A stretch of DNA of 64,000 nt from Acidobacteriota bacterium (GTDB taxonomy: Bacteria; Acidobacteriota; Thermoanaerobaculia; Multivoradales; J023): positions 1-64,000 of the forward strand of contig JAJCXO010000164.1 of assembly GCA_029263395.1 (NCBI GenBank). The letters are read 5' to 3'. Positions 16,914 to 34,959 of the stretch are shown here, piece by piece. A program made the translations under genes and the position numbers. Below the pieces are notes generated by a model, which was given only the letters and a program-made list of their open reading frames with translations, made no database searches and was not told the origin of the DNA. Every line of letters starts with the position of its first letter. Within the stretch, counting starts at the first letter, position 1.

Positions 16914-16919
<6 letters not shown>
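16752..16919. repeat. 95-bp duplication of palindromic spacer including the end of valS
   Basis: A 73-base sequence occurs twice without a mismatch, at 16752-16824 and 16847-16919 (offset 95). Each copy has two hairpins: GCCGGC...GTCGGCCC, and GGGCCGGC...GTCGGCCC followed by TTTT. The right-hand copy contains the valS stop and last Gly codon, so the left copy carries a relic of the gene's end. The TTTT after the second hairpin suggests terminator activity for plus-strand transcription arriving from secF. Confidence 0.9.
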
Positions 16920-19607
<2,688 letters not shown>

Positions 19608-24216: not shown

Positions 24217-27200
24217 TTAGGCGGTCGGTAGGCGGACTATGCAGGGCCCGACCGCAGTGCCCTCGTGGAGCTCGTTGACCAGCGTCACCGTACGACCTGC
24301 CAGCGCTTCGAGTTCCTGATGGTCCCGGCGCAGCCAGGTGAGGACCTCGGCATTGGAGCTGCCGACCTCAACTTCTCCGGCCGAGCCCTTGCGCAGTTGT
24401 TCGATCAGTGCGCTAACCCAGGGTGGGCCCTCGATATTGCTATTCGATCGTGCCTGGGTCCAAGTGGTCAGTTTCTCGAACGAATAAGGGCACACCGGGC
24501 TGAAGCCAGCGGCGAGTTTGTGGATCACCGCAGACACGGTGGCACGGATCGAGTCGAGGTCGTCACCGCGTTGGTCGCGCCCGGCGGCGAGGGTGGCGTA
24601 ACGGGCGAGTTCGTCGATGACCGTTGGTAACAATCGTCCAGCGTCAGCCAAACGCAACTCGTCATAAGCGCTACGAGCGGCCTGTGATGCGGCGTCGGCT
24701 CGGTTCAAGATCCAGGCGTCGGCCAGTCGCGCCGGGCCACCTTCAGTAGCGTCACGGGTCAGATGGAATAGGCCAGTGACTTTGGAGCTCAGGCGGTGCA
24801 CCGTGCGACGTGCGCGGCGCAGATGTGATTCGGCCGCTGTCGCGAGGTCCATCGAGCCGGTGTGCAGTGATAGTAGGTAGCCTAGTCGCAGCGCGTCGGC
24901 GCCGAAGCGTCGGATCAGCGCAGCGGGCTCGATCGCGTTGCTGAGCCCGGGTCGCATCGGTCGGCGAATCCAGCGGACGACGAAGCGTTCTTCGTCGAAC
25001 ACTTGGTCCAATGATGCTTTTTCGTCGTCTAGATCGGGCCGTTCTTCGAGCACCCGTTCGAGGAACTGAAGGCCGCCGTGGACGCGGGTCTGACGGAATG
25101 CAGGGCGCCCGGTCAACGCCAGAGAAACCAGTTGACAAGGCAACACCCAGCGGCTCAAGCGCTCATTGTCGGTGTAGAGCTCGTCGATCGGTTCGGGTTC
25201 CGGATCCGTCGGCCAGCCAGCGGCACTCAGGGTTGATGCGACGAGGGAGAACCACACGCTGAGCACTTCGTCCTCCGACCTCGGCAGGGCATGTCCCCAC
25301 CAATATTGGCGCGAGATACACCAGGGTTCTGGATCGGCGAGCAACTCGAGAGCGCGGTGGCGCCAGCGATCGTCGGAGAAGCGCACCGTTCCGTTGTCGA
25401 TCGCCAGCCTGAGTCTGGCAGTTGCCTTGTCGAGATGGACAAAAACCTGTTGTGAGGTGCCGAGATTGACCAACGTGCCCGAGCCACGGGCGCGAAACGC
25501 CTCGACTTCGAAACGGCCGGTGCTGCGTTCGATGCGCTCGCCAAGGTGTTCACACACCCGGCGCCGAGCTTCCTCGCGAATCCAGGGCGTCCCGTCAGAG
25601 AGCAGGAAGCGTCCGTGGGCATCAATTACGACCCGCCGATGGCCGATTCCTTTGGCGTTGGCCAATGCCTCATCGGCCCGGTCGTGGGCTGGCACCAGGA
25701 ACTTGGCGTCGGTTGTAAGTTTGGAGAAGGCGTGAACCGGCAAGTTAGCGCGTCCGAAGGGGTCGAGGGCCTCACAGCCATCGAGATGACCGTAAGGGCC
25801 GTCACGGCGCACTGCGATCGCCACTGCCCCAGGCAGCAGCTCAGGGAAGAAAGTCTGAGCCTCGATCACCTCCGGTTTGTACCCGCTGGTCGTGAAGCTG
25901 ACGACAAAACGCTCATGGACTTCGACCTGAGTGCGGATCACATCAGGTGAGACCAGCACGGTTTGGGTTGTGGGATCGTAGTAGGAGAGACGTTTTTCGC
26001 GGGTGATGAGGCCGGCGTCCTCGAGTGCGAAGTAGAGTCGCCGCGAAGCGCGCATACCGTCGTGGCTCATCGGATCGATCCAAGCGTCGGGATCAAAACC
26101 GGCCCCGAGTTGATGCAGCTGATCTCGGATCGCCGCGTCATGACTGCGGTGGACGTCGGCACAACGCTCGACGAAACGTGGGCGACCGATCTCGTCGCGG
26201 TCAAACGGCAGCGAACCCTCAACTGCCAGCTGCAAGGACAGACCGCCTGGATCCGAACCGACGAGTCGGCGCGGCCTTGGGGCGCCGGTCAGTTCGATAG
26301 CGCGCGCCCGGACATCCATCATCAGCGCCGACAGCAGCGATGACAGGTCGGGGCGGCCAGCGGCGGAAATGGGCGCTGCGGCGAGGGTTTTACCCTGGCC
26401 GCGAAAGCGTCCTTCGCGCTCCCAGCGTACGCGCAGCGCGGGCTCGTCAGCGCCCGGCACGAAGGCGGTTGGCACTGTTGGGCGATCGTCAGCTTTCTTC
26501 TGGTCGAGTTGTCGTGCCCGGCTGCCTCGCCCACCATGCCAACCGCTGGCGATCAAGGCATCGATGATGCGGCGTCCGCGATGGCCGATCAGTGGATGCA
26601 GTTCGGTTGCGGCGATGTCGGCCAGTTGATCAGCCGCAGCGGCGGTGGTGATCATCTGGCTGCGGGCATGTTTGAGTACTCGCAGGGTGTCGGGATACAC
26701 CCGCTCTGCAGCCAACTGCACGTCGTGACGCAGGTAGCCTTGCCATTCATCGGCACAATTGGTGATCCCCATCCGGTTACACAGGTAGTCGGGGACGTAA
26801 GCGATGCCACGTTGGCGCAAGCGCTCAGCGTCGGCATCTTCACCGAGAATGTTGTTGGCGGCACCGCAGACCAGGCGAGCCTTGAGACGCGGGATGGTAC
26901 GAGCGTTGACCTGGGCGCCGATGGCGCAGGGCGCGAAAATATCGGAGTCGAGGTCGAAAATGTCGTTGGAGGCGACAATCTCGATCCGCGGCCGGTCGCG
27001 CTTCAAAGCCGCTAGGGCGGGTTGATTGATATCGGTCACCCAGATCCGAGCGCCGGCATCGTCCAGCAGTGCCACCAACGGCCCACCGACGTTGCCGACC
27101 CCTTGCACCGCCACCTTGACGTCGGTCAATTCATCACTACCAGTGAGAAAACGCCACGCTGCCTGGATCGCGACAAATACACCACGGGCGGTGGCCTTGG

Positions 27201-27843
27201 ACGGGTTGCCACTGCCGCCCAGTTCACTGCCGACACAGGTGGTGAAGCGGTTCTGGCCGAGGATGGCGTTCATGTCGGAAGTTTTGGTACCGACGTCCTC
27301 AGCGGTGTAGTAGAGCCCCCCGAGGCTGGCGATGAATCGGCCGTAGGCGCGAAACAACTCCAGTCGTTGTTCGGTACCCTCGGTCAGATAGTCCGGGGTG
27401 CGCAGACTTGCACTAGTGGCGACGATCCCTTTGCCGCCACCCCACCAAAGACCGGCAAGAGCGTTCTTGCGCGTCATGCCGCGGGCCAGCCGCAAGCCGT
27501 CTACTAAAACGTCCGCCATGTTGTCGTAGGGTTTGAATCGCAAGCCACCTTGTCCGAGACCACGCCGAGTGTCGTGGACGGCAGCAAAAAACAGCGTCGG
27601 TATACCCTCTTCGCGACCGATGAAGATACCTTCGTGGTCGGCGAAGTCTTGGGACAATTCGAAGAAGGCGCGCACCGGGGACAACAAACCCGGATGGGAG
27701 AGCGAGATCTCACCGTTCTCAGAAACGATGAAGGCGCGGGTCACCCCGGCTTCAGCAAGCTGATCGTGGAACTCTTCGATGCTCGTCTGGCGGACGCGGC
27801 GAGCAAGCTCGCGACGCTGGGCGTCGATCTTGTGGCTGGACAT
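24217..27843 (-). CDS. Fusion of leucine-dehydrogenase-like enzyme and degenerate valyl-tRNA synthetase
   Basis: 1208 residues in one uninterrupted frame. The ATG at 27843 has AAGGAG upstream; earlier ATGs add 47 unlike residues. Residues 1-440 are a Glu/Leu/Phe/Val dehydrogenase closest to LeuDH. It has the catalytic Lys in GMTRKNA (125) and GGGKG (138), Asp in TAEDVGT (183), the NAD site GVGNVGGPL and GAANNIL. Residues about 465-1208 follow ValRS order: RWEREGRF, the YYDPTTQTVLVSPDVI segment, CP1 editing remnants with VPAHDRAD, WCISRQYWWGHALP (841), and GLSNAIEP...FGADALRL. The HIGH site reads AAGRPDLSS, and KMSKS reads RRPMRP. The C-terminal coiled-coil arm is absent. Aminoacylation is therefore unlikely, while deamination of branched-chain amino acids is plausible. 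The linked module may sense valine or tRNA (inference). Confidence 0.85.
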   Translation of the reverse strand: MSSHKIDAQRRELARRVRQTSIEEFHDQLAEAGVTRAFIVSENGEISLSHPGLLSPVRAFFELSQDFADHEGIFIGREEGIPTLFFAAVHDTRRGLGQGGLRFKPYDNMADVLVDGLRLARGMTRKNALAGLWWGGGKGIVATSASLRTPDYLTEGTEQRLELFRAYGRFIASLGGLYYTAEDVGTKTSDMNAILGQNRFTTCVGSELGGSGNPSKATARGVFVAIQAAWRFLTGSDELTDVKVAVQGVGNVGGPLVALLDDAGARIWVTDINQPALAALKRDRPRIEIVASNDIFDLDSDIFAPCAIGAQVNARTIPRLKARLVCGAANNILGEDADAERLRQRGIAYVPDYLCNRMGITNCADEWQGYLRHDVQLAAERVYPDTLRVLKHARSQMITTAAAADQLADIAATELHPLIGHRGRRIIDALIASGWHGGRGSRARQLDQKKADDRPTVPTAFVPGADEPALRVRWEREGRFRGQGKTLAAAPISAAGRPDLSSLLSALMMDVRARAIELTGAPRPRRLVGSDPGGLSLQLAVEGSLPFDRDEIGRPRFVERCADVHRSHDAAIRDQLHQLGAGFDPDAWIDPMSHDGMRASRRLYFALEDAGLITREKRLSYYDPTTQTVLVSPDVIRTQVEVHERFVVSFTTSGYKPEVIEAQTFFPELLPGAVAIAVRRDGPYGHLDGCEALDPFGRANLPVHAFSKLTTDAKFLVPAHDRADEALANAKGIGHRRVVIDAHGRFLLSDGTPWIREEARRRVCEHLGERIERSTGRFEVEAFRARGSGTLVNLGTSQQVFVHLDKATARLRLAIDNGTVRFSDDRWRHRALELLADPEPWCISRQYWWGHALPRSEDEVLSVWFSLVASTLSAAGWPTDPEPEPIDELYTDNERLSRWVLPCQLVSLALTGRPAFRQTRVHGGLQFLERVLEERPDLDDEKASLDQVFDEERFVVRWIRRPMRPGLSNAIEPAALIRRFGADALRLGYLLSLHTGSMDLATAAESHLRRARRTVHRLSSKVTGLFHLTRDATEGGPARLADAWILNRADAASQAARSAYDELRLADAGRLLPTVIDELARYATLAAGRDQRGDDLDSIRATVSAVIHKLAAGFSPVCPYSFEKLTTWTQARSNSNIEGPPWVSALIEQLRKGSAGEVEVGSSNAEVLTWLRRDHQELEALAGRTVTLVNELHEGTAVGPCIVRLPTA

Positions 27844-27950: not shown

Positions 27951-27991
27951 GAATTTGATGTCTTGACATCAAATTCGAGCGCATTTATGAT
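27951..27991 (+). promoter_or_regulatory. Promoter with perfect palindromic operator of the VapBC module
   Basis: GAATTTGATGTC-TT-GACATCAAATTC (27951-27976) is a perfect 12-bp inverted repeat. It overlaps TTGACA (27963-27968), which is followed by exactly 17 bases and TATGAT (27986-27991). The antitoxin ATG begins seven bases after the -10, so transcription should start at or next to the A of the ATG. This fits autorepression by a ribbon-helix-helix antitoxin and a leaderless message. Confidence 0.8.
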
Positions 27992-27997
27992 GCCTAG

Positions 27998-28267
27998 ATG
28001 AGGACTACGTTGACACTCGAGGATGATTTGGCCAGCCTTCTCAAGGCTCGGGCGCTCCAACTCGGTGTATCCTTCAAAGAGGTTGTGAATAGGGCATTGA
28101 GGTCTGGGCTGGGAGCGGAGATGGAGCCATCTAAGGGAGATGCTCCGAAGACCATTCCACACTCCTTTGGATTTCGACCCGGCATCGATCTCGACAAGCT
28201 GAACCAACTCGCCGACGAGCTCGAAGCTGATGCTGTTGCCGAGTCTTTTGCTCGACAGATGGAATGA
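27998..28267 (+). CDS. vapB: Ribbon-helix-helix antitoxin (VapB type)
   Basis: 89 residues. The N-terminal MRTTLTLEDDLASLLKARAL is a ribbon-helix-helix DNA-binding motif (beta strand TTLTL, then two helices). The C-terminal half (PGIDLDKLNQLADELEA) would wrap around the toxin. The stop overlaps the toxin start as ATGA. There is no Shine-Dalgarno sequence, and the start codon coincides with the predicted transcription start. It should bind the 26-bp palindrome upstream and repress its own operon. Confidence 0.87.
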   Translation: MRTTLTLEDDLASLLKARALQLGVSFKEVVNRALRSGLGAEMEPSKGDAPKTIPHSFGFRPGIDLDKLNQLADELEADAVAESFARQME

Positions 28268-28692
28268 TCCTGCCTGACGTCAACGTTCTCATCCATGCTC
28301 ACAACTCGGACTCCCCTGTTCATCAACCGGCGAGAGATTGGTGGGATGGATGTCTGGCTGGGACCGAGGGCGTTGGTCTTGCCTGGGTTGCACTCCTGGG
28401 TTTCATCAGGATCTCGACACACCGCAAGATTTTGTTGCGGCCCCTCGCCGTGGACGATGTGACCGCACGGATCGATAACTGGCTGAGGCTGCCACAAGTT
28501 CACATCCCTCATCCCTCGGGCCGTCACTTCGAGGGGCTACGGGAGGCCTTTCACGATCTCGGCACAGCAGGCAACCTCACGACGGACGCTCATCTCGCAA
28601 CGTTGGCTAAACAGCGGGGTTATGTGCTCTACACCACAGACTCCGACTTCACACGGTTCCCCGGGCTGCGCTGGGTCAACCCTTGTGCCTAG
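28264..28692 (+). CDS. vapC: PIN-domain ribonuclease toxin (VapC)
   Basis: 142 residues. The PIN-domain acidic residues are seen in ILPDVNVLIHAHN (Asp5), NLTTDAHLATLA and YTTDSDFTRFPGL. VapC toxins are Mg2+-dependent RNases that cleave tRNA or rRNA and arrest growth when free of VapB. The start overlaps the antitoxin stop by four bases, indicating coupled translation. A 42-bp repeat array begins 63 bases after the stop. Confidence 0.88.
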   Translation: MILPDVNVLIHAHNSDSPVHQPARDWWDGCLAGTEGVGLAWVALLGFIRISTHRKILLRPLAVDDVTARIDNWLRLPQVHIPHPSGRHFEGLREAFHDLGTAGNLTTDAHLATLAKQRGYVLYTTDSDFTRFPGLRWVNPCA

Positions 28693-30090: not shown

Positions 30091-33000
30091 ATGAGCCCTG
30101 CACTCGAAGACAAACAGCTCTTGATCGATCATCTCGTCGAGCGCACGCTGGAGGTCGCGGTCGACTCCGAAGACGGCGTCGAGGCGTTCGTTCGGCATTG
30201 CTGCGAAGACCTTTCACCCGAGGATCTGCAGCACGCCCATGGCGACGATCTGGTGGATGGCATGCTCGAACTTTGGGCTCTGGGCAAAGATCGACCGGTC
30301 GGTAAGTTACGGCTGCGCATCTTCAACCCCGAGGCCGAGGGTGGTCGAGGTTCCGACCGGACGGTGATTCAGGTGGTTGGCGACGACATGCCGTTCTTGG
30401 TGGACTCGACCATTGAAGAGCTCAATCGGCGTGATCTCACCGTCCATTTGGCGATGCATCCGCAGCTCTCGATGCGTCGTGATGCCGACGGCGAGAGGGT
30501 CGATGTCGTGCGCCGTGGCCTCGAAGGCGACGACATCGTCAGCGAATCCTTCATGCATTTCGAAGTTGATCGCCAGACCTCTCCCAGTGTGCTGGTGGAT
30601 CTCGAAACCGCGTTGCGTCGCGTGTTGGGGGATGTCGAGGCTGCGGTCGAGGATTGGCAGTCGATGCGAGGTGTCGCCGCCCGAGTGTTGCAGCGCTTGG
30701 AGGAGTCTCCGCCGCCCCACGCCTCAGATGACTCGGACGAAGTGTTGGAATTTCTGCGCTGGGTTTATGAGGATCATTTCACCTTCCTGGGGTACGTCGA
30801 GTACGAGCTCGAGATCGAAGATGGCGCAGAATATCTGCGACCGCTACCCAAAACCGGCCTGGGTCTTTTGCGACGCCTCTCCCTGGGCGAGCGTGCGGTC
30901 AGTGACAAACCGTTGACCTCCGAAGCCTTGAACTCGCTACACGGTGATGGCCTGTTGAGGATTTCGAAGACCAATTCCAAGGCGACCGTGCATCGCAACG
31001 TTCACATGGACCTGCTGGCGATCAAACATTTCGACGATCAAGGGCAGCTGTGCGGCGAGCATCGTTTCCTCGGCCTGTTTACGTCGATGGCCTACAGCAT
31101 TGCGGTCGGCGAGATTCCGTTGGTCCGGCGTAAAGTGGCACGGGTCATCAATCGGACGCGTTTTCCACCGGTCAGCCATAGTGCCAAGGCCCTGCGTCAC
31201 ATCGTCGAGAACTATCCCCGCGACGAACTGTTCCAGATGTCCGAAGCGGATCTCTACCGTTTTGCTTTGCGTATTTTGGCCCTCCAGCTGCGGCCGCGCG
31301 TTGCTTTGCTGGTCCGGCGCGACGAAGGCGGACGATTCGTTTCATGCATGGTCTATGTGCCTCGGGAGCGGCACTCCACCCACCTGCGGATGTGTATTCA
31401 GAAGATCCTCGAACGAGCGTTTGCGGGCCAGGTTTCGGCTTTCAACACCCGCATGTCGGATCGGCCGTTGGCACAGCTCCATTTTGTGGTGAGAACCCAG
31501 CCGGGAGCGAGTGAGGTCGACGTGGCGGCGGTCGAAGCCGAGCTGGTGGCTACGGCAAGATCATGGAGCGATCGCCTCAAGCAAGAGCTGGGCGGTGCTC
31601 GCGGACAGGAAACCGGGCTCCAAACCTGGCGTCGTTATGGCGAAGCGTTCCCGAGTGCGTATCAGGAGCACTTCACCGCCGCAGATGCCGCACGGGACAT
31701 TCCGGTGGTTGATCAAGTACTCGAAAACGGCAACCTGGGATTACGTCTCTATCGACGCCAAGGTGCCGTCATCTCTCGGTTTCACCTCAGGATTTTCGAG
31801 TTGGCGATCCCAGCGCCGCTGTCCAGTCTGTTGCCGATGCTCGAAAATATGGGCTTGCTCGTCAACTCAGAGATCCCGTTCGAGGTTCGGCCGACCGGTG
31901 CCTCCAACCCGGTGTGGGTGCGCGACTTCGAGCTGGTCGCCGACGATGTCGACGTCGATCCCGAAGATGCTCAGGTACGGTTCGAGGAGGCCTTCACACG
32001 AGTTTGGACCGGCGAACTCGAAAACGATGCCTTCAATCGCCTCATCTTGCGAGCTGGGTTGGCTTGGCGCCAGGTTGTGATCCTGCGCGCTTATTATCGT
32101 TACCTACGCCAGATCGGCTTCAATTTCTCGTTGCTTTATGTCGCCCAGACGTTGGCCAAACATCCCGAGGTGGCTCGGTTGTTGGTTGAGCTCTTCGATA
32201 CCGTGTTCAATCCGCAGCATGATCGGGTCGAGCTGGACGACACGGTAGTTGCGAGGGGATCGATTGGCCGAAGTGACGCGGCTGATATGGGGGCCGCGGC
32301 CAACGCTGTTGTGCGGCGTATTCATCGGGCTCTCGAAAGGGTTTCGAGTCTCGATGAAGACCGCATTCTGTGGCGATTCCTGAACCTGATCCAGTCGACG
32401 CTGCGCACCAATTTTTACCAGTCGAACACGGATGGCACCCCCAGGGGCTACCTGTCGCTCAAGCTCGATGGCCAGCGGGTGCGTAACCTGCCGCCGCCGC
32501 GACCGATGTTCGAGATCTTTGTGTACTCGCCACGGGTCGAAGCGGTCCATCTGCGGGGTGGGCCGGTGGCACGGGGCGGTATCCGTTGGTCGGATCGACG
32601 GGAAGACTTCCGCACCGAGATTCTCGGTCTTGTGAAGTCGCAGATGGTCAAGAACGCGGTCATCGTACCGGTTGGCGCCAAGGGCGGTTTCATCGTCAAG
32701 CGCCCCCCCCAGTCGGGTGATCGTGAGGAGATGTTGGAAGAGGGAATCCGGTGTTACAAGACGATGATCACCGCGCTGCTCGAGATTACCGACAACCGCC
32801 GAGGTGACCAGATTGTGCCGCCCGCAGACGTTGTGCGTCTCGACGGTGACGATCCCTACCTGGTTGTTGCTGCCGACAAGGGCACCGCCACCTTCTCCGA
32901 TATTGCCAACAGCATTGCTCAGGCGCAGGGCTTTTGGCTCGGCGACGCCTTTGCCTCCGGCGGCTCGGTCGGTTACGACCACAAGAAGATGGGCATCACA

Positions 33001-34959
33001 GCGCGTGGTGCTTGGGAATCGGTCAAGCGTCATTTCCGTGAACTCGGCCGCGATATCCAGAGCGAAGACTTCACCGTCATCGGTGTCGGGGACATGGCCG
33101 GCGACGTATTTGGAAACGGTATGTTGCTCTCCGAGCACACCCGTCTGGTGGCGGCGTTCAACCATCTCCACATCTTCATCGACCCCGACCCCGATCCGGC
33201 GACGTCGTTTGCCGAGCGCCGCCGTCTGTTCGAGCTGCCGCGTTCGAGCTGGCAGGACTACGACGCGACGCTGCTCTCACCAGGTGGCATGGTGTGTGAC
33301 CGTCACGCCAAGTCGGTGGCCGTAACTCCGGAAGTCCGCGAGCTGCTGACGCTCTCCGACGACAACCTGACACCCGACGAGTTACTGCGGGCGATTCTCC
33401 GCGCCAAAGTCGACTTGCTGTGGTTTGGCGGGATCGGAACCTTCGTCAGATCGAGCCGGGAGACCAATGCCGACGTCGGCGACTACTCCAATGACGAGGT
33501 CCGGATTGCTGCCAACGAGCTCGGGTGCAAAGTGATTGGCGAAGGGGCCAACCTCGGGGTGACCCAATCGGGCCGGATCGAATTTGGGCTCGCTGGTGGG
33601 CTCGTCAATACCGACTTCATCGACAACTCGGGTGGTGTCGACTGCTCCGACCACGAGGTCAACATCAAAATTGTGCTCGACGAAGTGGTGGCGGCTGGTG
33701 AGTTGACCCTCGAGGCCAGAGATCGCCTGCTCGGTGAGATGTCAGACGAGGTGGCTGGGCTTGTGCTGATCCACAACTACCAGCAAACCCAGTCGATTTC
33801 CGTCACCCAAGCGCAGGGTTCGCAGCTGCTCGACGAGCATGCGCGCTTGATGCGAATCCTCGAGCGTGCCAACCTGCTCGATCGTCGGCTGGAGGGTCTT
33901 CCCGACGAGGCTACCCTCAGCGATCGTCGCCAGCATAAGAAGGTACTCACCCGTTCCGAGATCGCGGTGTTGTTGGCCTACAGCAAGATCTATGTTTTGA
34001 ACGAATTGCTGGATTCCAGTCTGCCGGACGAGCCGTTGCTGGTCGAGGACTTGGTGCGTTACTTCCCGGAACCGATGCGGAAGCGTTTTCGGCCAGCGAT
34101 CGAACGCCATCGTCTGAGCCGGGAAATCATCGCTACCACCGTCACCAACAGCATCATCAACCGGGTGGGTCCCAACTTCGTCGTCCGTTTGACGGAGGAA
34201 ACCGGAGCCCGAGTCTCGGATGTGGCGCGGGCCTATACCGCCGCTCGGGACGTGTTCGCGATGCGTTCGGTGTGGGAAGAGATCGAGGCTCTCGACAACA
34301 AGCTGCCGGCTGATCAGCAGAACAAGATGTGGCTCGACTCGATCCACCTGATCGAACGTGCAACCCGCTGGTTCTTACGTTACGGTGGCCGGCCGCTCGA
34401 CATTTCGGCGTGCATCGAAGAATTCGAGATGGACATCGTGGTGGTTGCGGCGCAGCTGGTTGATCTGTTGGCGCCGCGGGCCAAAGCGAAGGTCCGCCGT
34501 CGCACCAAGCGTTTGCGTGAGCAGAAGGTGCCGCTGGAGTTGGCGACCCGTCTCGCCGGTATGGATATTTTGCCGTCAGCCTGTGATGTGGCCCGCTGTG
34601 CCCGGGATTCCGGGGTGCCGGTGGAACGTGTCGGTAAGGTCTACTTTGCGGTCGGCGAGCGGTTCGGTTTCGATCGCCTGCGGTATGCGGCGCGTCGGCT
34701 GAGCGGTGAGAGCCCCTGGAAGGCGGCAGCAGCCAACGCCAATATCGAGGATTTGCTGAGCCATCAGGCAGCGTTAGCCCGTCAGGTCGTGAGTCATCCG
34801 GGCAAGGTCAAGGCAGCCATCGCCACCTGGGTTGACGAACGCGCCAAGGCGGTCCGTCGGCTCGACAATCTGCTGTCGGATTTTGAGGCCGGGCCGGTTG
34901 ATCAAGCGATGCTGACCATCGCCGAGCGCGAGTTGCGAAGATTGGTCCAGGAGTCCTGA
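30091..34959 (+). CDS. NAD-dependent glutamate dehydrogenase, 180-kDa (L-GDH180) type
   Basis: 1622 residues, the size expected for the GDH180 family. The long N-terminal regulatory part contains ACT-like segments (VVGDDMPFLVDSTIEELNRR, and RLYRRQGAVISRFHLRIFE). The catalytic core has GGIRWSDRREDFRTEILGLV, KNAVIVPVGAKGGFIVKR and the VIGVGDMAGDVFGNGML nucleotide-binding region, followed by IGEGANLGVTQ. It deaminates glutamate to 2-oxoglutarate, feeding amino-acid carbon to the TCA cycle. The ATG follows GGGGAGACGG. It is monocistronic and divergent from the SDR gene. Confidence 0.95.
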   Translation: MSPALEDKQLLIDHLVERTLEVAVDSEDGVEAFVRHCCEDLSPEDLQHAHGDDLVDGMLELWALGKDRPVGKLRLRIFNPEAEGGRGSDRTVIQVVGDDMPFLVDSTIEELNRRDLTVHLAMHPQLSMRRDADGERVDVVRRGLEGDDIVSESFMHFEVDRQTSPSVLVDLETALRRVLGDVEAAVEDWQSMRGVAARVLQRLEESPPPHASDDSDEVLEFLRWVYEDHFTFLGYVEYELEIEDGAEYLRPLPKTGLGLLRRLSLGERAVSDKPLTSEALNSLHGDGLLRISKTNSKATVHRNVHMDLLAIKHFDDQGQLCGEHRFLGLFTSMAYSIAVGEIPLVRRKVARVINRTRFPPVSHSAKALRHIVENYPRDELFQMSEADLYRFALRILALQLRPRVALLVRRDEGGRFVSCMVYVPRERHSTHLRMCIQKILERAFAGQVSAFNTRMSDRPLAQLHFVVRTQPGASEVDVAAVEAELVATARSWSDRLKQELGGARGQETGLQTWRRYGEAFPSAYQEHFTAADAARDIPVVDQVLENGNLGLRLYRRQGAVISRFHLRIFELAIPAPLSSLLPMLENMGLLVNSEIPFEVRPTGASNPVWVRDFELVADDVDVDPEDAQVRFEEAFTRVWTGELENDAFNRLILRAGLAWRQVVILRAYYRYLRQIGFNFSLLYVAQTLAKHPEVARLLVELFDTVFNPQHDRVELDDTVVARGSIGRSDAADMGAAANAVVRRIHRALERVSSLDEDRILWRFLNLIQSTLRTNFYQSNTDGTPRGYLSLKLDGQRVRNLPPPRPMFEIFVYSPRVEAVHLRGGPVARGGIRWSDRREDFRTEILGLVKSQMVKNAVIVPVGAKGGFIVKRPPQSGDREEMLEEGIRCYKTMITALLEITDNRRGDQIVPPADVVRLDGDDPYLVVAADKGTATFSDIANSIAQAQGFWLGDAFASGGSVGYDHKKMGITARGAWESVKRHFRELGRDIQSEDFTVIGVGDMAGDVFGNGMLLSEHTRLVAAFNHLHIFIDPDPDPATSFAERRRLFELPRSSWQDYDATLLSPGGMVCDRHAKSVAVTPEVRELLTLSDDNLTPDELLRAILRAKVDLLWFGGIGTFVRSSRETNADVGDYSNDEVRIAANELGCKVIGEGANLGVTQSGRIEFGLAGGLVNTDFIDNSGGVDCSDHEVNIKIVLDEVVAAGELTLEARDRLLGEMSDEVAGLVLIHNYQQTQSISVTQAQGSQLLDEHARLMRILERANLLDRRLEGLPDEATLSDRRQHKKVLTRSEIAVLLAYSKIYVLNELLDSSLPDEPLLVEDLVRYFPEPMRKRFRPAIERHRLSREIIATTVTNSIINRVGPNFVVRLTEETGARVSDVARAYTAARDVFAMRSVWEEIEALDNKLPADQQNKMWLDSIHLIERATRWFLRYGGRPLDISACIEEFEMDIVVVAAQLVDLLAPRAKAKVRRRTKRLREQKVPLELATRLAGMDILPSACDVARCARDSGVPVERVGKVYFAVGERFGFDRLRYAARRLSGESPWKAAAANANIEDLLSHQAALARQVVSHPGKVKAAIATWVDERAKAVRRLDNLLSDFEAGPVDQAMLTIAERELRRLVQES

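Follow-up and report, generated by a model that had tools for sequence, protein, structure and literature searches.

We analysed a window of 64,000 nucleotides, positions 1 to 64,000 of contig JAJCXO010000164.1 in the assembly GCA_029263395.1 of an Acidobacteriota bacterium (class Thermoanaerobaculia), and focused on one gene of its minus strand (Table 1). The gene encodes a dehydrogenase of the ELFV family, similar to leucine dehydrogenase (LeuDH), followed by a region derived from valyl-tRNA synthetase (ValRS) that lacks the catalytic motifs and that we call pseudo-ValRS. A preliminary description of the window had placed both halves in one uninterrupted frame, without giving its strand. We find the same frame: it starts with an ATG at 27843 and crosses the junction of the two halves without a stop codon. 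The longest open reading frame (ORF) delimited mechanically begins at 27984; the start at 27843 is preferred and agrees with the relative in genome G001 (the window's own genome being G000). After the fusion gene, and on the same strand, come genes for a histidine kinase, a PLD-like protein, and the ValRS itself (valS).

Table 1. Positions of the fusion gene, its parts and motifs, and valS in the window
Feature	Positions	Strand	Remarks
Fusion gene, ELFV dehydrogenase + pseudo-ValRS	24217..27843	minus	1208 residues, one open frame; six uninterrupted relatives
Dehydrogenase part	26524..27843	minus	residues 1-440; K126, K138, D183, GxGxxG; PF02812/PF00208
Variable linker	26449..26523	minus	residues 441-465; dN/dS 0.44 (G000 vs G001)
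Pseudo-ValRS part	24439..26463	minus	residues 461-1135; VIA-align to 1gax_A
HIGH position, both His lost	26335..26379	minus	residues 489-503, AAPISAAGRPDLSSL; HIGH counterpart is PDLS
GSDPGG, counterpart of GTDHAG	26242..26259	minus	residues 529-534; D531 retains Asp81 of Thermus ValRS
CP1 (editing)-like domain	25474..25881	minus	residues ~655-790; without the editing residues; deleted in G066 and G077
WCISRQYWWG, tRNA 3'-end segment in class Ia synthetases	25294..25323	minus	residues 841-850
SVWFS, counterpart of DTWFS	25246..25260	minus	residues 862-866; Trp in 7/7
RPMRPG, KMSKS position, lost	24946..24963	minus	residues 961-966; R-P-M invariant in 7/7
Helical anticodon-binding-like domain (weak)	24439..24843	minus	residues 1001-1135; PF08264 below cut-off, helices in model
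C-terminal tail	24220..24438	minus	residues 1136-1208; no ValRS coiled-coil arm; model stops at 1192
valS	16914..19607	minus	HIGH and KMSKS intact; downstream of the fusion, same strand

Pfam places PF02812/PF00208 at residues 87-383 and PF00133 at residues 486-854, while the anticodon-binding domain PF08264 scores 24.0 bits, under its cut-off of 25.1. Four NCBIfam equivalog models of ValRS match the fusion with 100.8-167 bits, far under their cut-offs of 612-1783, and the alt_ValS exception model gives 49.8 bits. For comparison, the window's valS reaches 918.8 bits on the first of the equivalog models.

Distribution and origin of the fusion

We searched 59 related genomes, among them that of the window, and identified four more uninterrupted fusions, with 88% (G001), 62% (G004), 53% (G010), and 54% (G025) identity. 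A search of 148 genomes of the class with a profile of the pseudo-ValRS (E <= 1e-60, a threshold that more diverged fusions would escape) matched 10 genomes, i.e. seven fusions and three true ValRS with HIGH and KMSKS (G131, G133, and G141). It added the fusions of G066 and G077, whose shorter ORFs (983 and 969 residues) match the profile in its second half only, because the CP1 domain is deleted, together with the Zn-ribbon region in G066. The two-domain architecture proposed from the window is present in 7 of the 148 genomes, in five genera (g1, g4, g8, g33, and g41) and four families, and the C-terminal parts of the relatives are 38-84% identical to that of the window. In a sample of 396 genomes of the phylum, 16 matched: four fusions already known and 12 others, of which the seven examined are all ValRS. 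Outside the phylum, viral contigs gave 23 pattern matches, none of them confirmed, and 56 plasmid records matched, none at 80% cover; the 10 plasmid matches listed all fall on the ValRS-like part. One scan of genome contigs by single-protein patterns gave three loci, and absence elsewhere is not thereby shown.

Since six other genomes keep the same fusion, this is a real, if unusual, protein. The assembly of the window's genome is fragmented (291 contigs), and two genes might have been joined by assembly or gene calling. The same junction in seven assemblies from five genera leaves practically no room for such an artefact and rules out an assembly error. Relatives with separate genes and a stop at the junction, which the preliminary description would have taken as a sign of such an error, were not seen in the seven genomes.

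The seven fusions form one clade of the dehydrogenase tree (support 99/97), sister to four standalone long dehydrogenases (G003, G006, G011, and G026), and fusions and standalone proteins together have a support of 100/99. The seven pseudo-ValRS also form one clade in the ValRS tree (100/100). Both trees separate (G066, G077) from ((G010, G025), (G004, (G000, G001))), the pairing of G066 and G077 being weakly supported in the dehydrogenase tree (87/49). Each half thus forms a single clade and the two branch alike, so a single origin of the fusion is probable. Both trees were flagged for long branches and leave the position of the pseudo-ValRS within ValRS unsettled: its stem measures at least 4.4 changes per column in a tree rooted at the midpoint, and its origin cannot be placed. 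The long dehydrogenase was found at E <= 1e-110 in 18 of the 396 genomes of the phylum sample. Four of these are fused and 14 lie in open frames of 425-691 residues, which are too short for a pseudo-ValRS. The simplest reading, with these 14 proteins outside the tree, is that a dehydrogenase able to function by itself in other genomes was fused to the ValRS part later.

A recent copy of the neighbouring valS is an unlikely source of the domain. In six of the seven fusions the pseudo-ValRS matches the ValRS of G264, from another family of the phylum and the sole outside sequence compared, better than the valS of its own genome (133 against 75 bits for the best segment in G000). In G066 the genome's own ordinary valS is a slightly better match than that of G264. 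Two CxxC pairs are kept in three of the seven fusions and are lacking in the window's valS.

The two halves of the protein

We modelled residues 1-1192 from an alignment of 26 rows that included ValRS and dehydrogenases. The predicted local distance difference test (pLDDT) of the model is 86.3 and its predicted template modelling score (pTM) is 0.67. Foldseek ranked the ValRS structure 1gax first (E 1.6e-35), and VIA-align superposed 678 residues of the model, within 455-1192, on 1gax_A (Z 30.6, root mean square deviation 3.9), whereas the chains of LeuDH and phenylalanine dehydrogenase aligned mostly with residues 56-417 (Z 39.7-45.8). To avoid a bias towards ValRS, we remodelled the C-terminal part from the seven fusions alone, with no true ValRS in the alignment. 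Confidence was lower (pLDDT 68.5, pTM 0.58, with the initial 45 residues, as far as the HIGH region, below 50), and Foldseek again ranked 1gax first (E 1.4e-30). By VIA-align, 1gax has Z 22.8 over 608 residues; chains of MetRS tie with it (Z 22.5-22.9), but over 412-443 residues. As the preliminary description had anticipated for residues 465-1208, ValRS is the best match of the C-terminal half, by sequence and by predicted fold, with and without ValRS in the alignment.

The N-terminal half has the two-domain fold and the Pfam domains of the ELFV family, preceded by an extension of ~57 residues. It matches the LeuDH 8gxd (E 1.1e-73) and is 35-40% identical to solved LeuDHs over ~345 columns. 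K126, K138, and D183 are invariant in the 11 related dehydrogenases aligned, and all three are present in the seven fusions. The third glycine of GxGxxG (G248-x-G250-x-x-G253) is kept in 9 of the 11, including all seven fusions. The LeuDH-type catalytic residues reported earlier are thus intact, except that the lysine numbered 125 is K126, and the fusion is predicted to be an NAD-type amino-acid dehydrogenase. The substrate pocket differs from that of LeuDH proper. We take the leucine before GG and the valine of NAGGVINV to line the hydrophobic pocket of LeuDHs. All seven fusions have Q98 and C363 at these positions, while the 21 standalone LeuDH-like proteins of the order have the leucine in all cases and the valine in 20 (G040 has a cysteine). 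The breakdown of branched-chain amino acids by this enzyme and the sensing of valine or tRNA by the attached domain, both suggested in the preliminary description, remain proposals. In summary, the fusion shares with LeuDH and other ELFV dehydrogenases the fold, the catalytic Lys, Lys, and Asp, and GxGxxG, and departs from them in the N-terminal extension, the two pocket residues, and the pseudo-ValRS at the C terminus.

To count motifs in the pseudo-ValRS we aligned the seven fusions with 34 ValRS, three IleRS and a divergent sequence of G026 having been excluded beforehand. KMSKS is replaced in all seven fusions by PM followed by R, K, or Q, so that the first lysine has become proline and the methionine is kept; the second lysine survives in G025 alone. 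The second histidine of HIGH is gone in all seven and the first in five, G066 and G077 keeping H-L-G, and the counterpart of the motif varies by lineage (PDLS, PSLD, or PHLG). The coiled-coil arm is missing at the C terminus, both in the alignment and in the model. The losses of HIGH, KMSKS, and the arm listed in the preliminary description are all confirmed (PDLS, PMRP, no arm). We counted 150 positions conserved in at least 95% of ValRS. Of these, 3 of 15 are kept in the HIGH and KMSKS blocks and 63 of 135 elsewhere (one-sided p = 0.04); in the DTWFSS and GYDI blocks the count is 5 of 19.

The CP1 domain is kept in five of the seven fusions, without the key editing residues. The Arg and Thr of RPET, which act in editing, are replaced by F and L in all five, and the window reads TFFPEL. 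The segment VPAHDRAD, highlighted earlier as a retained editing segment, is indeed present in the window, but it is not functionally retained, the Arg and Thr of RPET being replaced, and two relatives lack CP1 altogether; we reject an editing function. As far as the alignment tells, CP1 is kept in the window as a fold and not as an active site, and the ValRS-derived domain cannot be expected to form an adenylate or to edit.

Other parts of the synthetase were retained. Trp864 is kept in all seven fusions and Asp531 in six (it is Asn in G077); they align with Trp456 and Asp81 of Thermus ValRS, which belong to its valine pocket together with Pro41 and Ile491. In the block WCISRQxWWGHxxP (residues 841-854), most fusions keep each of the nine ValRS-conserved positions, in agreement with the retention of WCISRQYWWGH noted previously. 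With 9 of 9, compared with 3 of 15 in the ATP motifs, this is the best-preserved stretch, a contrast that the preliminary description had not pointed out. According to PMC7955072, Arg424 and Arg426 of the Escherichia coli LeuRS touch C74 and A76 at the 3' end of the tRNA; their equivalents in ScIleRS are Arg460 and Arg462, with Trp456 in the same site. By this ScIleRS spacing (W, +4, +6), on which the placement rests, W841, R845, and position 847 (Tyr) of the fusion would map to the tRNA 3'-end site, of which the WCISRQ segment is the putative counterpart. Compared with ValRS (TIGR00422, PDB 1gax), the fusion has the same order of domains, the same fold over ~680 residues, and WCISRQxWWG; it differs by the loss of HIGH, KMSKS, the editing residues, and the arm, by the absence of CP1 in two relatives, and by the attached dehydrogenase.

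We compared G000 with G001 by the ratio of non-synonymous to synonymous substitution rates (dN/dS). It is 0.026 in the dehydrogenase, 0.021 in residues 466-610, and 0.058 in valS, against 0.083 in the whole pseudo-ValRS and 0.155 in the C-terminal tail; the CP1-like domain (0.139) is less constrained than the remaining pseudo-ValRS core. Between G010 and G025 the values are 0.057 for the dehydrogenase and 0.17 for the pseudo-ValRS, at a saturated dS of ~2.2. The pseudo-ValRS is thus under purifying selection, and its decay is unlikely because residues 466-610 are as constrained as the dehydrogenase. We examined 676 positions, of which 121 do not vary across the fusions having them (5 to 7 sequences): 39 are common with ValRS, 16 have switched from a ValRS-conserved residue, four belong to an insertion missing from ValRS, 36 occur where ValRS varies, and 26 fit none of these classes. 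Invariants specific to the fusions and near the former active site include S505, Q904, and R-P-M at 961-963. Since the invariants include switched, inserted, and ValRS-variable positions, we read the pattern as pointing to a new function rather than to decay.

That a copy of valS was fused by accident and now lingers as a functionless relic is very unlikely. The variation of HIGH among lineages and the loss of CP1 in two of them would fit such a relic, but the frame is open in all seven genomes, the invariant positions span seven divergent proteins, and the low dN/dS of the domain, above all of its N-terminal half, speaks against it, albeit from a single pair of genomes.

Linked valS and gene neighbourhood

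The window's valS is the only match above the ValRS family cut-off in its genome. It lies 4.6 kb from the fusion with HIGH and KMSKS intact, in line with the intact valS ~5 kb away in the preliminary description. In four of the seven genomes (G000, G001, G004, and G066), valS lies downstream of the fusion and shares its strand, a linkage across genomes that the preliminary description had not noticed. Two ORFs intervene in G000 and G001; in the latter, the ORFs that follow the fusion are of similar size and valS is ~5 kb downstream. The longest valS frame starts 107 bp downstream of the fusion in G004, and in G066 valS overlaps the end of the fusion by four bases (GTGA). The linked valS belong to a separate clade of ValRS that is carried by the seven genomes of the window's family and by G013, with two copies in G066; the valS of G005, which is in two pieces, was assigned to it by identity only. 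The editing motif of this clade is PAHS instead of PAHD in eight of nine sequences. The linkage in four of the seven genomes supports a functional tie between the fusion and ValRS.

Several further features of these synthetases were observed. In most sequences of the separate clade (the window's valS at 16914-19607, L070-L074, L076, L087, L096, and L097), KSKPET replaces the usual K-GN stretch after KMS. G066 (L062 5901-16860; L129; L130) has three valS: the fusion has a copy of the divergent type on either side, of which the second starts divergently, and the third, of the ordinary type, is elsewhere. A gene for an AAA ATPase of 966 residues lies four bases after the second divergent-type copy, two tRNA-Thr(CGT) genes lie just beyond, ~11.5 kb apart, and recombinase-like ORFs were recognised by eye. 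The best ValRS candidate of G026 (L075, contig C150) scores 583 bits, below the family cut-off, is 26% identical to the window's valS, and groups with IleRS in the tree. The IleRS of the window's genome (L080 358-3747, contig C138) has an odd HIGH segment (GVHHA) and MHKSK at the KMSKS position; its best match among solved structures is 8c8w, a mupirocin hyper-resistant HIGH-motif mutant of IleRS2.

The rest of the neighbourhood is less consistent. A gene for a toxin-like PIN-domain protein adjoins the fusion in the window (28264-28692), and a large NAD-glutamate dehydrogenase of 1622 residues with ACT domains is encoded on the opposite strand ~2 kb away (30091-34959); no ORF of that size stands beside the fusion in L034, L035, L036, L044, L061, or L062. 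In G010 and G025 (L035 11966-15120 and L036 11558-14438, the f5 pair) several downstream ORFs look alike in order and sequence and include, by eye, sigma-factor-like and zinc-finger anti-sigma-like proteins. No tRNA gene was found beside the fusion in the window or in L034, L035, L036, L044, L061, and L129, no defence-system model matches the fusion, and the ten loci with standalone long dehydrogenases have no recurring neighbours as judged by eye.

Possible role of the pseudo-ValRS domain

Sequence, phylogeny, and predicted fold agree on a two-domain protein of a single clade whose synthetase half has lost the adenylation motifs in all seven genomes, as well as the editing site, under purifying selection. 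We propose that this half is a non-catalytic regulatory domain, derived from an aminoacyl-tRNA synthetase (aaRS), that controls the dehydrogenase as HisZ controls HisG, and give this reading a probability of about one half. A ValRS stripped of its ATP-dependent chemistry would have been kept as a pseudo-enzyme; it would bind, with no need of ATP, valine, the 3' end of (valyl-)tRNA, or both, and the bound ligand would switch the attached dehydrogenase, such that deamination would follow the state of the valine and tRNA-Val pools. The narrower version, in which a class I pseudo-synthetase reads the charging state or the 3' end of tRNA-Val and directly gates the dehydrogenase, is more doubtful and we advance it only tentatively.

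Precedents exist for the components of this proposal. HisZ is a paralogue of HisRS without adenylation that mediates the inhibition of HisG by histidine (PMC9437257 and PMC9734150). As with HisZ, through which an amino-acid enzyme presumably becomes responsive to an amino acid, an aaRS-derived domain without catalytic motifs is tied to such an enzyme in the fusion. However, HisZ is of class II (HisRS), a separate subunit, and serves a biosynthetic enzyme, whereas the fused domain has class I ValRS as best fold match, shares a chain with a probably catabolic enzyme, and has a regulatory role that is proposed. The glutamate dehydrogenase of Thermus thermophilus, of the ELFV superfamily, senses AMP through an APRT homologue that has no catalytic activity (PMC8387880, citing Tomita 2019), with the difference that this sensor is a separate subunit of unrelated fold. 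The LeuRS-I of Sulfolobaceae is also a class Ia paralogue; its editing domain is disrupted and it charges no tRNA, but it still forms leucyl-adenylate and binds tRNA, and no fusion is mentioned in the available part of PMC9437257. ValRS bound to the F1 ATPase was proposed as a valine sensor in a meeting report (PMC6023080). Among the papers listed by literature searches, judged by titles and the openings of abstracts, we found no fusion of a dehydrogenase with ValRS and no ValRS-derived domain on an amino-acid dehydrogenase, and the word ValRS is absent from the available part of the review of aaRS duplications PMC9437257. Regulatory aaRS paralogues are known already; what sets the fusion apart is that the aaRS-derived non-catalytic domain is of class I and fused to a metabolic enzyme.

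Several observations weigh against the regulatory reading, in which both the ligand and its effect on the enzyme are predictions. How the two halves are oriented in the model is uncertain. Losses are only modestly enriched in the ATP motifs, and the amino-acid-site blocks (DTWFSS and GYDI) are poorly kept as well. The valine pocket is kept in part, since the counterparts of Pro41 and Ile491 have changed, besides the Asn at position 531 in G077. The tRNA segment of G066 is degraded to WYISENSWWG, with the Arg lost, and the second tRNA-contact position lacks Arg in all fusions (as in the ValRS sequences printed alongside). With the tRNA segment, CP1, and the Zn ribbons all affected in G066, the sensing of tRNA may fail as an explanation for all seven proteins. 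The pocket of the dehydrogenase is unlike that of LeuDH, and its substrate may be unrelated to valine. Finally, valS is on another contig in G010, G025, and G077, so that the linkage fails in three of the seven genomes, and where present it could go back to no more than two events.

The linkage also bears on a docking role, in which the pseudo-ValRS would fix the dehydrogenase to ValRS, to tRNA, or to itself as an oligomer, and sense no ligand; the enzyme could, for example, clear valine-like non-cognate amino acids near ValRS. The closeness of valS in four genomes and the PAHS motif of the linked clade fit this possibility. Yet the three genomes in which valS is on a different contig do not, and the strongest constraint falls on that half of the Rossmann fold which once held the active site rather than on an evident outer surface, and we consider a docking or scaffold role rather unlikely, if worth keeping in mind. 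The fusion-specific invariants near the former active site, among them S505, Q904, and R-P-M 961-963, and the retained tRNA 3'-end segment are also compatible with a new chemistry, in which the domain would handle aminoacyl-tRNA without ATP and the dehydrogenase would act on its substrate or product. Cyclodipeptide synthases offer a precedent, as class I aaRS-like enzymes that lost HIGH and gained a serine (PMC2922099). A correspondence of S505 to their serine site is not demonstrated, though, the tRNA segment has decayed in G066, and the 13 annotated neighbouring proteins revealed no biosynthetic pathway, which makes such chemistry improbable.

The regulatory reading comes with a clean comparison set, made of the standalone dehydrogenases of G003, G006, G011, and G026, the full fusions, and the fusions without CP1. 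If its narrower version is true, one protein of these bacteria would couple the supply of translation directly to the oxidation of amino acids, with neither kinase nor second messenger in between. Should the domain bind valine or tRNA-Val, the supply of protein synthesis would be tied to the breakdown of amino acids within a single polypeptide.

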